IMG/VR virus record: IMGVR_UViG_3300017593_000537
Location: 1 to 35,352 of that record
DNA from: a virus
Direction: 5' to 3' (one strand)
Length of the DNA: 35,352 nt
The position numbers and the translations under genes are program-made. Of this stretch, positions 12,005 through 16,198 are shown one piece after another. A model generated the notes under the pieces. That model ran no database searches. It had not been told where the DNA came from and saw only the letters and a list, made by a program, of their open reading frames with translations. Each line of letters starts with the position of its first letter. Within the stretch, counting starts at the first letter, position 1.

Positions 12005-12211
12005 TTAGTGTTGCTTGGACTGCTCTAGCTCTAGACCAGCCTGATAGCGACGGTATGCAACATAGCTCATGGATCGAACTTCATTACCAGCTGTGCTTAC
12101 CAACTCTTCATGTTCATTTGGCGTTAGCCGTAGCTGTATGGGTTTGCGTTTACCATCTTTTAGATGTGGCAGCTCTCCCTTGGGCGTTGCCTGTAATGTT
12201 GTTTCAGTCAT
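12005..12211 (-). CDS. first early gene: ribbon-helix-helix regulator (Cro/Cox position)
   Basis: 68 residues from ATG 12211. The frame reaches back to 12274 but that would run over the promoter; AGGAT precedes the chosen ATG. After a polar leader, KRKPIQLRLTPNEHEELV and a second helix (SMSYVAYRRYQAGLE) make an RHH domain. It is the first gene of the leftward early operon and is divergent from the CI-like repressor, exactly where P2 has cox and lambda has cro. It is therefore a good candidate for the lytic-switch regulator and excisionase control. Confidence 0.7.
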   Translation of the reverse strand: MTETTLQATPKGELPHLKDGKRKPIQLRLTPNEHEELVSTAGNEVRSMSYVAYRRYQAGLELEQSKQH

Positions 12212-12329: not shown

Positions 12330-12770
12330 GTGGAGTCAATTGAAGTGGGGAAGCGCTTAGAAGCAGAGCGTCAGCGTTTGGGCCTTATGGCAGTTGAGGT
12401 TTATGAAGAGCCAACTATCAGAATTGCTCAAACAACATATAAAAACTATGAGACAGGCAAGCGTGATATGCCTTCATCATTGCTAATTAAGCTATGGAAT
12501 ATTGGGTTTGATGTGATGTATGTCTTGACTGGTCAGCGTTTAGAGGATATTGCGCTTGATGTAAGATCTCATAAGGATCTGCCGTCATATCATCAGAGAT
12601 TGATTAATCTACCCGATATACTGGATCTAGAAAGCCCTTCAGATAGGCTGTTGGGTGCGATGTATCACGCAGAGGAAGCGTTGGTACAAGCCGGGGCAAA
12701 TGCCAATGAAGACTATGACTATAAGATACTGGCAACATTAGGACTGGGTTTGATCGATACAGTCAAATGA
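12330..12770 (+). CDS. CI-like immunity repressor, XRE-type HTH
   Basis: 146 residues from GTG 12330, preceded by AAGGGG at 6 nt; an upstream TTG at 12285 would place coding over the operator and is less likely. The first ~65 residues are a Cro/CI-type HTH (IEVGKRLEAERQRLGLMAVEVY...IAQTTYKNYETGKRDMP...LLIKLWNIGFDVMYVLTG). The rest is a helical tail without a LexA-type peptidase, as in non-inducible P2-type repressors. It diverges from the early operon and is the only such gene here, so it most likely maintains lysogeny. A 14-bp operator copy overlaps its stop codon. Confidence 0.82.
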   Translation: MESIEVGKRLEAERQRLGLMAVEVYEEPTIRIAQTTYKNYETGKRDMPSSLLIKLWNIGFDVMYVLTGQRLEDIALDVRSHKDLPSYHQRLINLPDILDLESPSDRLLGAMYHAEEALVQAGANANEDYDYKILATLGLGLIDTVK

Positions 12771-12794: not shown

Positions 12795-12821
12795 AAAAAA
12801 AACCAGTCACTCGGACTGGTT
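12795..12821 (-). terminator. rho-independent terminator of the leftward arc-like operon
   Basis: AACCAGTC-ACTCG-GACTGGTT (12801-12821) is an 8-bp stem followed on the minus strand by eight T. It stands 19 bp beyond the stop of the 234-aa orphan gene and ends the operon before the convergent CI gene. Confidence 0.85.
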
Positions 12822-12839: not shown

Positions 12840-13544
12840 TTAAAACGCATTGTCTGACATATCTTTTTGACTGTGTACCAAGTCCAGTAGGTCGCTGCTG
12901 GTCATGCTGATACGGGCATTCGGGTCTGCTACGTGCAGTGTCTCTGCCATGTCAATGATGATGCCACGCAGTGATTGAATGGTGTCTCTATCAATGGTCT
13001 GCTGTTCATGTAGCTTTAATGCTTTGGTTTTCCAAGCTTTGGCATCTGTCTCCCACTTGCCATGCTTGACTGGTATCTCTGCAAAGGTTACTTGGGATAG
13101 TTCGAGCGCAATCTCGTCTGTCTTAGATTTTTCTAGTGGAATGGTCTTGTTAGTATGACCATACTCTAAACGTATTGCATTAATTCTTTTACCATCTAAC
13201 TCGGAATTAAAAGCAATGGTCGAAGGTTGTAATAGCTTGGGTTCTTCTAAATCGTAGAGAGCGTCAACTATCTCCATATGCGTAATAAGTTTGCCACAGT
13301 GTGACTGTATGAGCTGCTGTACCTGATAGATATCCAGTGTCATCATTGTTGGATGAGTAGGCGTATGGTCGGTTTTGATACTATGCTGACGTTCGCTGAC
13401 AAATAGAGCATTAAAGAAATTGCGTATGATGCTTTCATGGTTTGCGCTAGTATCGCCTTTCATTATGTAGTCACCGCGATTGTCAGCTTTGGTGAGTGTT
13501 TTAGGTTTAGCGGTAGTTTCTTGTGCTGTGTTATACTTTGACAT
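12840..13544 (-). CDS. orphan protein in ant-like position of an immI-like locus
   Basis: 234 residues from ATG 13544, chosen for GGAG 9 nt upstream; ATG 13559 is in frame without a site. The N-terminus is Lys/Thr-rich and disordered (1-45), followed by a mixed alpha/beta part (MMTLDIYQVQQLIQSHCGKLITHMEIVDAL) and a helical C-terminus that looks coiled-coil prone (AWKTKALKLHEQQTIDRD). I do not recognise a family. It is the last gene behind an Arc-like repressor and is closed by a terminator, which matches the place of the antirepressor gene ant in P22 immI. That parallel is positional only. Confidence 0.65.
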   Translation of the reverse strand: MSKYNTAQETTAKPKTLTKADNRGDYIMKGDTSANHESIIRNFFNALFVSERQHSIKTDHTPTHPTMMTLDIYQVQQLIQSHCGKLITHMEIVDALYDLEEPKLLQPSTIAFNSELDGKRINAIRLEYGHTNKTIPLEKSKTDEIALELSQVTFAEIPVKHGKWETDAKAWKTKALKLHEQQTIDRDTIQSLRGIIIDMAETLHVADPNARISMTSSDLLDLVHSQKDMSDNAF

Positions 13545-13752
13545 ACTGATTAACTCCATGAGTTATTTGGTTAAAGGAATTAACTTTAGTTAGGTTGATT
13601 TCTTTGGTGTTAAAGGCAGACCGAGTACTTTGGCGAGTGCGGTCTGCCTTTTTTATGCGCTGACATAATTGCAGGTGACGATATAGCAACTGCTGACTGC
13701 GTAGGTAAGTATTGATCTGCTGGGTGGTGTTAGGTCTATTTAGCTGTGACAC
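13531..13752 (-). CDS. basic small protein coupled to the Arc-like gene
   Basis: 73 residues with a strongly basic centre (RIKKADRTRQSTRSAFN). Start is GTG 13752, which overlaps the end of the Arc-like gene by 17 bp and has GAGGAG 7-8 nt upstream, a strong ribosome binding site. The stop overlaps the next gene by 14 bp. The frame carries a 12-bp perfect inverted repeat, so part of the mRNA would be a hairpin. No family recognised; expression is plausible because of the ribosome binding site and coupling. Confidence 0.5.
   Translation of the reverse strand: MSQLNRPNTTQQINTYLRSQQLLYRHLQLCQRIKKADRTRQSTRSAFNTKEINLTKVNSFNQITHGVNQYVKV
13612..13654 (+). terminator. terminator-like hairpin, rightward, inside a leftward gene
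   Basis: AAAGGCAGACCG (13612-13623) and CGGTCTGCCTTT (13640-13651) form a 12-bp perfect stem with a 16-nt loop, followed on the plus strand by T up to 13654. No rightward gene ends here, so it may stop antisense transcripts or, on the minus strand, act as a structure within the mRNA. Confidence 0.6.
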
Positions 13753-13891
13753 GGGCTTGCTCCTCTTTTATCATTACAATTAATTGTGATGTGACTGAAC
13801 GGCAATTGTCTTTTGCGTGTTGTTTGAGCCAATCCGCTAAATCATCTGGTATACGAACGTTTACTTGCTTATCTTGTCTTGCCATTTTCAT
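13736..13891 (-). CDS. Arc-like ribbon-helix-helix repressor (51 aa)
   Basis: 51 residues. KQVNVRIPDDLADWLKQHAK, then NCRSVTSQLIVMIKEEQ is the classic RHH order: a DNA-contacting beta strand, helix A, the turn with RSV-T/N-S, and helix B. Length and layout match P22 Arc (53 aa). ATG 13891 has CAGGA 5 nt upstream. It is divergent from the Mnt-like gene across four operators and heads a leftward operon with two orphan genes. It likely represses its own promoter and perhaps the divergent one. Confidence 0.8.
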   Translation of the reverse strand: MKMARQDKQVNVRIPDDLADWLKQHAKDNCRSVTSQLIVMIKEEQARVTAK

Positions 13892-13903
13892 GTATTCCTG
13901 TGT

Positions 13904-13990
13904 ATGTTAGCAAAACGCTATGTTAGCGTATTGCTATGTTAGTATAATGCTAGTATTGAAGTCAATAGTTTTTACTAGCATAATGCTAGT
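13904..13990. promoter_or_regulatory. four-operator divergent control region between two RHH genes
   Basis: Three head-to-tail 16-bp repeats, each starting ATGTTAG and ending GCT (13904-13919, 13920-13935, 13936-13951), have the inverted core TTAGC-N4-GCTA or close to it. A fourth, near-perfect palindrome, ACTAGCATAATGCTAGT, lies at 13974-13990. The rightward promoter TTGAAG (13956-13961), 17 bp, CATAAT (13979-13984) has its -10 inside operator four; TATAAT at 13943-13948 is inside operator three. On the minus strand TTGACT is read at 13964-13959. RHH dimers bind such palindromes in tandem. Confidence 0.75.
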
Positions 13991-14012
13991 AATGTTTAGT
14001 TGGGTTATTTCT

Positions 14013-14285
14013 ATGAGTACAATTCAGTTTAATTTGCGAGTTCCTAAAGAGCTAAAAGACAAGATAGATAAGGCTTCAGCAGAAAGCGGACGATCTATTA
14101 ACGCTGAGGCTGTCTATCGTATGGAGCGAAGTTTTATTCAAGAAGAGCTGTCCGTTCCTATGAATGTAATGTTCGATGATGATTGGTTTGATGCTACTGG
14201 ATTAACCAAAGAGGAGTTTGGCAGCTTTGTTAAAATGGCTGTGCATAGTGGTGTTTCTAAATATAAGGTAGATAAGGATGGCTGA
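14013..14285 (+). CDS. Mnt-like ribbon-helix-helix repressor
   Basis: 90 residues from ATG 14013; the open frame starts at 13920 but that part is the operator region. The N-terminal ~45 residues (TIQFNLRVPKELKDKIDKAS, then GRSINAEAVYRMERSF) are an Arc/Mnt-type RHH domain. A C-terminal extension (about 50-90) could serve tetramerisation as in P22 Mnt (83 aa). No strong ribosome binding site is visible. Its stop overlaps the start of the lipoprotein gene by 8 bp, so it probably autoregulates the whole rightward accessory operon and may control the divergent operon. Confidence 0.82.
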   Translation: MSTIQFNLRVPKELKDKIDKASAESGRSINAEAVYRMERSFIQEELSVPMNVMFDDDWFDATGLTKEEFGSFVKMAVHSGVSKYKVDKDG

Positions 14286-14652
14286 TTTGAAAAAAGGATT
14301 TTTGCTTGGATTAGTTGCGCTAGTATTGGTTGGCTGTGGTGACCTTGAACCTCAATCTGAGGTTGTAGCAGACAATGAACGCGCAGTAAGCCGTGACACT
14401 TATGAGGGGGATTGGCCATTCACTGCTGATAGCGGTACGTTGGGCTGCATTGATAAGGCGGCTTATTTTGATGCTGGCAATGAAACTTATGCGCTAAGCG
14501 GCTTTAGTCGTGCTTATTCTGATAGTAAAGGGCTTGGTTGGCTGCCAGTTGACCCTGAGCAGACCTTTTGGTTGGACAATCCTGATATTGCAGGGGCAAA
14601 GATTAGTGTTGGTAATATGACTTCTGATGCCTTAAAGCTTTGTGATAAGTAA
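14278..14652 (+). CDS. lipoprotein with DUF2511-like domain
   Basis: 124 residues. MADLKKGFLLGLVALVLVGC is a signal peptide with lipobox LVGC; Cys20 would be acylated. The mature part reads WPFTADSGTLGC, then ...YALSGFS..., WLDNPDIAGAKISVG and a final ALKLCDK, with Cys pairs likely to form a disulfide; this order matches what I recall of the DUF2511 family, of unknown function. Start overlaps the Mnt-like gene's end. As a phage-encoded envelope lipoprotein expressed from a lysogenic promoter, a superinfection-exclusion or lysogenic-conversion role is plausible but unproven. Confidence 0.72.
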   Translation: MADLKKGFLLGLVALVLVGCGDLEPQSEVVADNERAVSRDTYEGDWPFTADSGTLGCIDKAAYFDAGNETYALSGFSRAYSDSKGLGWLPVDPEQTFWLDNPDIAGAKISVGNMTSDALKLCDK

Positions 14653-14664
14653 AGGGGATAAGCA

Positions 14665-15186
14665 GTGATTTATGTTTTTTGGTTTATCGTCTTTGTTGTG
14701 ATTTTTAATTTATGGCTTAAATATACTAAGAGCGGCAGACGCTACAATGAAAAATTAGAGGCAGACACGGCTGCCCGTAAACAGGTCAAATTAGATAAAA
14801 AACAGGCCAAACTAGACAGAGAACGATTATCTTTACAACCACAACATGATAATTCGCCAACATCGTCAGCTAACACTAATTCTCAGTATAATCGCAGCCG
14901 TTACAGTTATGACGGCTTTGAAGATACGTCAGATGACACAACCATCTATCCGATGACGCATTGCATGACTTATACCAATCGAGATGGCATTTCTAGCACT
15001 CGTGATATTGGAATGGTTCGCGCCTATCGTCGTAGTAAACGTTGGTATATCGATGCGTATTGTTATCAGCGCGGTGAAGTCAGAACTTTTGCTGTTGAGA
15101 ATATATCCAAACTAGAAGACTTCATTGAGGGTAATACTTATACTGCAAATAATATGATTCGTGAACATATCAAGTCTTATGAGTAA
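14665..15186 (+). CDS. membrane-anchored WYL-domain-like protein
   Basis: 173 residues from GTG 14665 (AAAGGGGAT upstream). Residues 3-19 are a membrane anchor (VFWFIVFVVIFNLWL), about 25-58 a highly charged helix, 59-90 a Ser/Asn-rich linker, and about 95-160 a compact domain with YTNRDGISSTRDIGMV, RRSKRWYIDAYC and RTFAVENI. The last blocks match the WYL fold (WYxxAxC...RxFxxxxI). WYL domains are usually ligand sensors of DNA-binding regulators; a membrane-tethered one without an HTH is unusual. It is the last gene of the accessory operon and ends 1 bp from the convergent D gene. Confidence 0.68.
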   Translation: MIYVFWFIVFVVIFNLWLKYTKSGRRYNEKLEADTAARKQVKLDKKQAKLDRERLSLQPQHDNSPTSSANTNSQYNRSRYSYDGFEDTSDDTTIYPMTHCMTYTNRDGISSTRDIGMVRAYRRSKRWYIDAYCYQRGEVRTFAVENISKLEDFIEGNTYTANNMIREHIKSYE

Positions 15187-15187
15187 C

Positions 15188-16198
15188 CTAGATCCCAGCC
15201 TCACACTTAATACCAGTACTATAACCACTGCCTGATAGGTCATGTGTCACTTCTACGACCGTCCATTGATGTTGATCAATATAAGGTCTAAAGCCTCTCA
15301 CTGTCGCAGGGCTATCAGCAATAATATCAGGACGTGCTACTGCTAACGTCAAATCAAAGCTCGCCACTTGGCGGGCTTTTTTATTGGCGCTCGCTTTTGC
15401 CTTGGATACTGCCTCTGATTTACTCTTGGCAGGTTTAGTTAGTACATGAGACTTGTCATTGGGTAGGGCGTCCATCGGTTTGGACTTACCGTCTTTGACG
15501 CTGATATGCTTAGTCTTACCCGATTTATCATCATGATAGCTTGCTGTCGTCTCGTCATAGTCGCTGGTACGATCGGCGCGACTATAACGATGACTGTCGC
15601 CAGACTGACGAGTGATAGTGACTTCTCCCAATGCTGTCCCTGAAGGTGATCTTGCATTGGCAATCGGTTTGATAATCAGCCGTCCCGCCTTAATCGTACA
15701 CATCAAATCATGGTCATCACAAAGCCTGGTTAATAGATTGATATCACTCTCACGGTGCTGATCGATATGATCGATCATTATTGCTGACACTGCATTATCA
15801 ATGGCCAATATCAATTCATGACGTTTGGCCACACTCGACGCTATTTCACCAAGCTTGTGCTGATGGTAGCTGTCACTGCGTTTTACCTTCAATGATGACT
15901 TGAAATCGGCTGACTTGGCGCGGATCTGAAGCTGGTCAGGTGTGCCACTGTGCTCGGCTTGATCAATGGTAAATGTGCCTTTGTCTATCATATCACCAGT
16001 ATCAGGCATCGCGAGCCATAGCCTTATCTCATTACCATTGGTAGGTAAGGGCAGCGCCGCGTCATGATCAGATAGTGTCAGTGATAATTCATCTGCTTCA
16101 GTACCACGCTTGTCTGTCATTGAGAGACTAATCAGACGCTTCTCAACCTGCGCTGTGCGATCAATACCTTCGATTGTGAGCTTGAATAAGTTGGTCAT
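15188..16198 (-). CDS. D: P2 gpD-like tail protein
   Basis: 336 residues of the P2 gpD (late control D / tail hub) family. It starts MTNLFKLTIEGIDRTAQVEKR and includes the typical SLTLSDHDAALPLP and RLCDDHDLMCTIKAGRLIIKP blocks. gpD forms the baseplate hub at the tube end, around the spike gpV. Slightly shorter than P2 D (387). It overlaps gene U by 4 bp (ATGA) and is the last tail gene, convergent with the accessory operon at a distance of 1 bp and without a visible terminator. Confidence 0.92.
   Translation of the reverse strand: MTNLFKLTIEGIDRTAQVEKRLISLSMTDKRGTEADELSLTLSDHDAALPLPTNGNEIRLWLAMPDTGDMIDKGTFTIDQAEHSGTPDQLQIRAKSADFKSSLKVKRSDSYHQHKLGEIASSVAKRHELILAIDNAVSAIMIDHIDQHRESDINLLTRLCDDHDLMCTIKAGRLIIKPIANARSPSGTALGEVTITRQSGDSHRYSRADRTSDYDETTASYHDDKSGKTKHISVKDGKSKPMDALPNDKSHVLTKPAKSKSEAVSKAKASANKKARQVASFDLTLAVARPDIIADSPATVRGFRPYIDQHQWTVVEVTHDLSGSGYSTGIKCEAGI

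Follow-up and report, generated by a model that had tools for sequence, protein, structure and literature searches.

Gene content of the locus

The window, meaning the whole stretch of DNA that was analysed (IMG/VR virus record IMGVR_UViG_3300017593_000537; 35,352 nt), derives from a P2-type phage of Psychrobacter. PHROG family matches for gpD, tape measure, portal, terminase, primase and integrase identified the backbone as P2-type (Peduoviridae). Between the CI-like gene and gpD lies a module with two divergent repressor genes of the ribbon-helix-helix (RHH) type, each at the head of an operon. The features of this region are listed below.

12330-12770, plus strand: CI-like HTH repressor of the primary switch, 146 aa, whose only matches, to HTH and PHROG repressor families, are weak; transcribed towards the Arc-led operon (convergent)
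12795-12821, minus strand: intrinsic terminator, 8-bp stem and U run (fold -16.2 kcal/mol, z -2.85)
12840-13544, minus strand: 234-aa protein (full ORF 12840-13559 encodes 239 aa; the second ATG gives 234 aa)
13531-13752, minus strand: 73-aa conserved protein (RPNTTQQIN...), a constant partner in the module, also found in prophages with another switch
13736-13891, minus strand: Arc-like RHH protein, 51 aa (Pfam Arc PF03869, 28.9 bits, E 1e-6; recognition strand Q-N-R)
14013-14285, plus strand: Mnt-like RHH protein, 90 aa (Pfam Arc PF03869, 40.2 bits, E 3e-10; recognition strand IQFNLR)
14278-14652, plus strand: lipoprotein with lipobox LVGC, DUF2511 (phrog_2950, E 1e-17); also in L003
14665-15186, plus strand: 173-aa WYL-domain protein with a hydrophobic N-terminus (family match)
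15188-16198, minus strand: gpD tail protein (phrog_52, E 8e-110), the fixed boundary of the cargo site

Divergent RHH genes for proteins of 51 and 90 aa, placed over four operators, had been predicted from the DNA, and the sizes, the strands and the four dyads were all confirmed. Both proteins exceeded the Pfam Arc PF03869 cut-off of 20.4 bits. In PDB searches the 51-aa protein matched Arc and Mnt (E 0.004-0.06) and the 90-aa protein matched P22 Arc (E 7e-6), with which it shares the recognition strand (IQFNLR here, QFNLR in P22 Arc). By tblastn, the 90-aa protein also matched Mnt and Arc genes of the P22 group. When the C-terminal tetramerisation region was tested, the PDB alignment to P22 Mnt stopped near residue 51. 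The pair by itself is unsurprising, since such divergent Arc-family pairs are common in phages: they were present in 54 of the 80 IMG/VR loci matched by the Mnt-like profile (redundant loci included), often with an antirepressor, and also in annotated phages of other types.

The expected layout of the Arc-led operon, with two further genes closed by a terminator, was also found: the 73-aa and 239/234-aa ORFs are followed by a hairpin with a U run. This hairpin was not listed by a pattern scan for terminators. Neither the 73-aa nor the 239-aa ORF gave a match in Pfam, PHROG or NCBIfam. On the other side, the predicted lipoprotein/WYL operon behind the Mnt-like gene was verified by the DUF2511 and WYL assignments.

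The CI-like repressor showed no match to Peptidase_S24, nor to any cleavage domain in Pfam, and with none detected an antirepressor would offer a route to derepression. The small protein encoded opposite CI (12005-12211) is an Arc-like RHH protein as well (phrog_3431, E 6e-10).

Operators and promoters

The gap between the two RHH genes is 121 bases long and holds four 13-bp dyads (13908-13988), which start at 13908, 13924, 13940 and 13976 (spacing 16, 16 and 36). Their number and quality were equalled in none of 400 dinucleotide shuffles. The dyads, taken as predicted operators, and the candidate promoters are as follows.

13908-13920: predicted operator 1, TAGCAAAACGCTA (dyad search, shuffle test)
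13924-13936: predicted operator 2, TAGCGTATTGCTA (dyad search, shuffle test)
13940-13952: predicted operator 3, TAGTATAATGCTA, within the spacer of the leftward promoter candidate
13976-13988: predicted operator 4, TAGCATAATGCTA, over the -10 of the rightward promoter candidate
13936-13965, minus strand: leftward promoter candidate of the Arc-led operon, TTGACT-18-TAACAT (consensus match only)
13956-13984, plus strand: rightward promoter candidate of the Mnt-led operon, TTGAAG-17-CATAAT (consensus match only)

The sigma-70 scan returned 11 promoter matches where 9.3 were expected by chance, and is uninformative alone. The same dyad analysis was applied to related loci (below), giving a set of nine in which operators were assigned by dyad search and by eye; per locus, the dyad count was reached in 0 to 9 of 400 shuffles.

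With the end of the leftward -35 as zero point, the operators of L003, L118, L023, L008, L007 and L037 are centred at 8-10 and 36-39. On the same measure the P22 Arc operator is at 9 and its Mnt operator at 37. These six relatives therefore match P22 in that the promoter spacer contains one operator, with a second some 28 bp from it. The centres in the window (-23, 13, 29 and 45) place one operator alone in the spacer, and operator spacing in the window and in L006 is unlike that of P22. Judged from the sequence, an operator lies in the spacer of the Arc-side promoter in seven of the nine loci, the window included.

Relatives and co-exchange of repressors with operators

A gpD scan yielded few viral contigs, and relatives were then drawn from Psychrobacter genomes and with the Mnt profile. 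The IMG/VR contigs L002 and L003 were reached via the 234-aa protein, and gpD as query brought in prophages from Psychrobacter glaciei (L006), P. nivimaris (L007) and P. pacificensis (L008). A genus-wide scan of 105 genomes contributed L022 as well as L023, the latter from a distant lineage with gpD about 41% identical; L037 and L118 came from the Mnt profile and the antirepressor scan. The set of loci with an RHH pair thus comprises nine: the window, Psychrobacter prophages and IMG/VR contigs. L022 is the sister prophage G060, which is without the module; the module is accordingly accessory. Together with the different genes found at this position in the other P2-type phages examined, this bears out the earlier suggestion that the module is not part of the P2 plan.

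The nine loci fell into five operator classes. TAGC-n5-GCTA operators occur in the window and L006, where the Mnt strand is IQFNLR. L003, L118 and L023 carry AACCACnGTGGTT and a Mnt strand of PQYKLR followed by MS, and L007 and L037 combine TAyCCAnTGGrTA with VQYQLR. The operator is TACCTAGTAGGTA in L002 and CCTCTAGTAGAGG in L008. Two loci were added later, and in both the operator matched the class of its own Mnt strand.

Operator distance followed the identity of Mnt (Mantel r -0.46, p 0.008) and of Arc (r -0.52, p 0.003) but not that of gpD (r 0.19, p 0.87), and so did not follow the backbone; these p-values are rough, as the loci are few and the RHH genes partly clonal. For the window and L007, gpD is 96% identical, whereas Mnt is 40% and Arc 29% identical and the operators differ. 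Conversely, L003 and L023 have the same operator although their gpD proteins are 41% identical. As the operators track Mnt and Arc rather than gpD, the RHH pair and its sites appear to travel as one cassette, exchanged so that phages of the same backbone fall in different classes. This collection supplies nine naturally occurring RHH pairs with matching operators, in five specificity classes and partly on nearly identical backbones; both the recognition of operators by RHH proteins and the way secondary immunity evolves thereby become testable.

The antirepressor of the Arc-led operon and comparison with P22 immI

A Bro-N antirepressor is encoded in the Arc-led operon of four of the nine loci, L003, L008, L037 and L118 (Pfam Bro-N, E 2e-22 to 2e-10), and the L003 protein matched the PHROG anti-repressor Ant (E 1.5e-33). 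The genes for these 283-287-aa proteins are flanked by the small PNTTQQIN gene on one side and the gene for the 234-aa protein on the other. No match between them and the domains of P22 Ant was reported. The gene is absent from the window and from four of the eight other loci with an RHH pair.

The locus had been likened to P22 immI (mnt-arc-ant; AB362338, 14456-15930). The analogy holds for the divergent Arc-family repressors of similar sizes, for the operator in the spacer of the ant-side promoter, for the P22 geometry in six relatives, for the antirepressor in the Arc operon of four of them, and for accessory genes on the mnt side, where those of the window take the position of the P22 exclusion gene sieA. 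It fails for the window in that the antirepressor is missing. Further differences are the P2-type backbone, the additional 73-aa and 234-aa genes, and the use of a Bro-N type antirepressor in the relatives. P22 also has distinct operators for Arc and Mnt, whereas each Psychrobacter locus uses one motif at all its sites. In P22, Mnt made by the prophage silences arc and ant, and Arc limits ant after infection (PMC7549136, PMC11016777).

Antirepression is also known to lift P2-type repressors through P4 E, which derepresses P2 (PMC4752584), and 186 Tum (PMC10612066). These differ in being satellite-borne or LexA-controlled and outside an Arc-led operon, and were set apart by description. In Klebsiella phage ST899-OXA48phi17.1, Pseudomonas phage UFJF_PfDIW6 and Acinetobacter phage TCUAN1, all with other backbones, an Arc-family gene or a divergent pair is flanked on one side by an antirepressor, close to tail genes. 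We know of no comparison of operator classes among these Arc-Mnt-Ant modules. The openly accessible literature yielded no Arc/Mnt module in P2-type phages. Going by that literature, the immI-type module in P2-type phages is new, and so are the swapping of RHH-operator classes while the backbone stays constant and the link to a cargo site beside gpD.

Based on gene order, protein families and operator placement, this locus of a Psychrobacter P2-type phage is probably a secondary regulatory switch of the immI type. While the phage is a prophage, the Mnt-like protein would be produced along with the cargo genes that follow it, bind the shared operators and keep the opposite promoter silent. Upon infection or derepression, the other arm would be expressed, with the Arc-like protein, the 73-aa protein, the antirepressor where present and the 234-aa protein; the Arc-like protein would then limit both promoters, and the antirepressor would lift repression by CI. 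In the window, with the antirepressor gone, two repressors would remain that switch between one arm with the lipoprotein and WYL genes and another with the 73-aa and 234-aa genes.

The cargo site on the gpD side

The arm led by the Mnt-like gene is a cargo site. In L037, too, mnt is followed by a WYL protein, though a different one. In L003 the same lipoprotein as in the window is followed by a GmrSD_N protein (PADLOC NsnA and PD-T4-2), a HEPN protein and a convergent cytosine methylase; G060 carries cargo of the L003 type with neither RHH pair, antirepressor nor 234-aa gene. A DUF6414 protein is common to the cargo of L007 (family match), L008 and L118 (near-identical sequence). Its copies (L007:12730-13578, L008:10714-11562, L118:3140-3988) have a 65-aa partner and sit on differing backbones; PADLOC gave no match for the L007 copy.

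Extra copies of the gpD 3'-end were seen inside the cargo of L007 (12523-12727, 74 residues) and L008 (10519-10703, 58 residues). They lie between gene cassettes, as if cassettes had been stacked by recombination at the gpD end. In Halomonas phage vB_HboP_4908 (L019:8027-9879) this site holds an Eco29kI-type restriction-modification pair, immediately behind gpD.

Defence genes also form part of the variable cargo of P2-type prophages of E. coli, where the hotspot adjoins cos, between gpA and gpQ (PMC9122126). The Psychrobacter site lies between gpD and CI and has a repressor gene at its head; for such cargo, which in some members includes defence genes, this is a position in P2-type phages distinct from the cos-proximal hotspot already known. 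Such prophage-borne cargo would be expected to be expressed in the lysogen, which suits the Mnt side.

The cargo also bears on the main alternative, that the pair is a mere local regulator of the genes behind mnt, unrelated to CI or immunity, with the antirepressor as one more exchangeable gene. Cargo is always present on the Mnt side, and varied; five of the nine loci lack the antirepressor; and in L026, a second P. glaciei prophage, an HTH/RHH pair replaces Arc/Mnt and is followed by cargo of the same kind, here PARIS-like AriA/AriB and SIR2 genes. However, the antirepressor occupies the same position of the Arc-led operon in all four loci that have one, a position shared by P22 and the annotated Klebsiella, Pseudomonas and Acinetobacter phages, and a purely local role was considered rather unlikely. 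The HTH/RHH pair of L026 (3328-4008) resembles that phage's own primary CI pair.

The immI-type switch may be extended, more tentatively, to a swappable second-immunity cassette in Psychrobacter P2-type phages. The RHH pair and operators would change together under selection for heteroimmunity, one arm would deliver an antirepressor directed against CI, and the other would tie the defence-cargo site to the lysogenic state. This wider proposal is plausible, with the balance of judgement still somewhat against it.

The 234-aa protein and the missing antirepressor

The original prediction had placed the 234-aa protein in the role of ant. This is probably wrong, as the antirepressor is a separate gene just upstream in four relatives. 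Relatives of the 234-aa protein were present in eight of the nine loci with an RHH pair, as the last gene of the Arc-led operon and adjoining CI. None was found in phage or plasmid collections, and a PDB search gave no significant match. The Bro-N antirepressors begin with MSQYNTA or MSQYNTT. A similar leader, MSKYNTA, opens the 234-aa protein of the window; counting the window, four of the five loci without an antirepressor have a protein of this type that begins with MSKYNTAQET or MSDYNTT. By eye, the window retains the start of an antirepressor-like frame, linked to the 234-aa frame through about 45 bases that found no match, which points to replacement rather than a clean deletion.

Conservation beside CI and the leader in loci without an antirepressor would suit a reading in which the 234-aa protein is itself the CI antirepressor and the module of the window is complete. 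This is improbable: Pfam, PHROG, NCBIfam and PDB gave no (for PDB, no significant) antirepressor match, and the protein is missing from L023 and from the module-free G060. Since a full antirepressor coexists with it in four loci, the 234-aa protein was set aside as a candidate, and it is probably the antirepressor's neighbour, not its homologue. It is likewise doubtful that the locus is a decaying immI remnant, because, although the antirepressor-like frame is reduced to its first codons, the remaining frames are all open, the operators are well kept and the antirepressor-free form recurs, across different RHH classes, in L002, L006 and L007.

At its C-terminus, the Bro-N antirepressor (L003:9108-9959) has a domain similar to the C-terminal one of the primase that the phage itself encodes (window:8254-11007). 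Both proteins match phrog_18886, and for L022 the resemblance is 42% over 73 residues.
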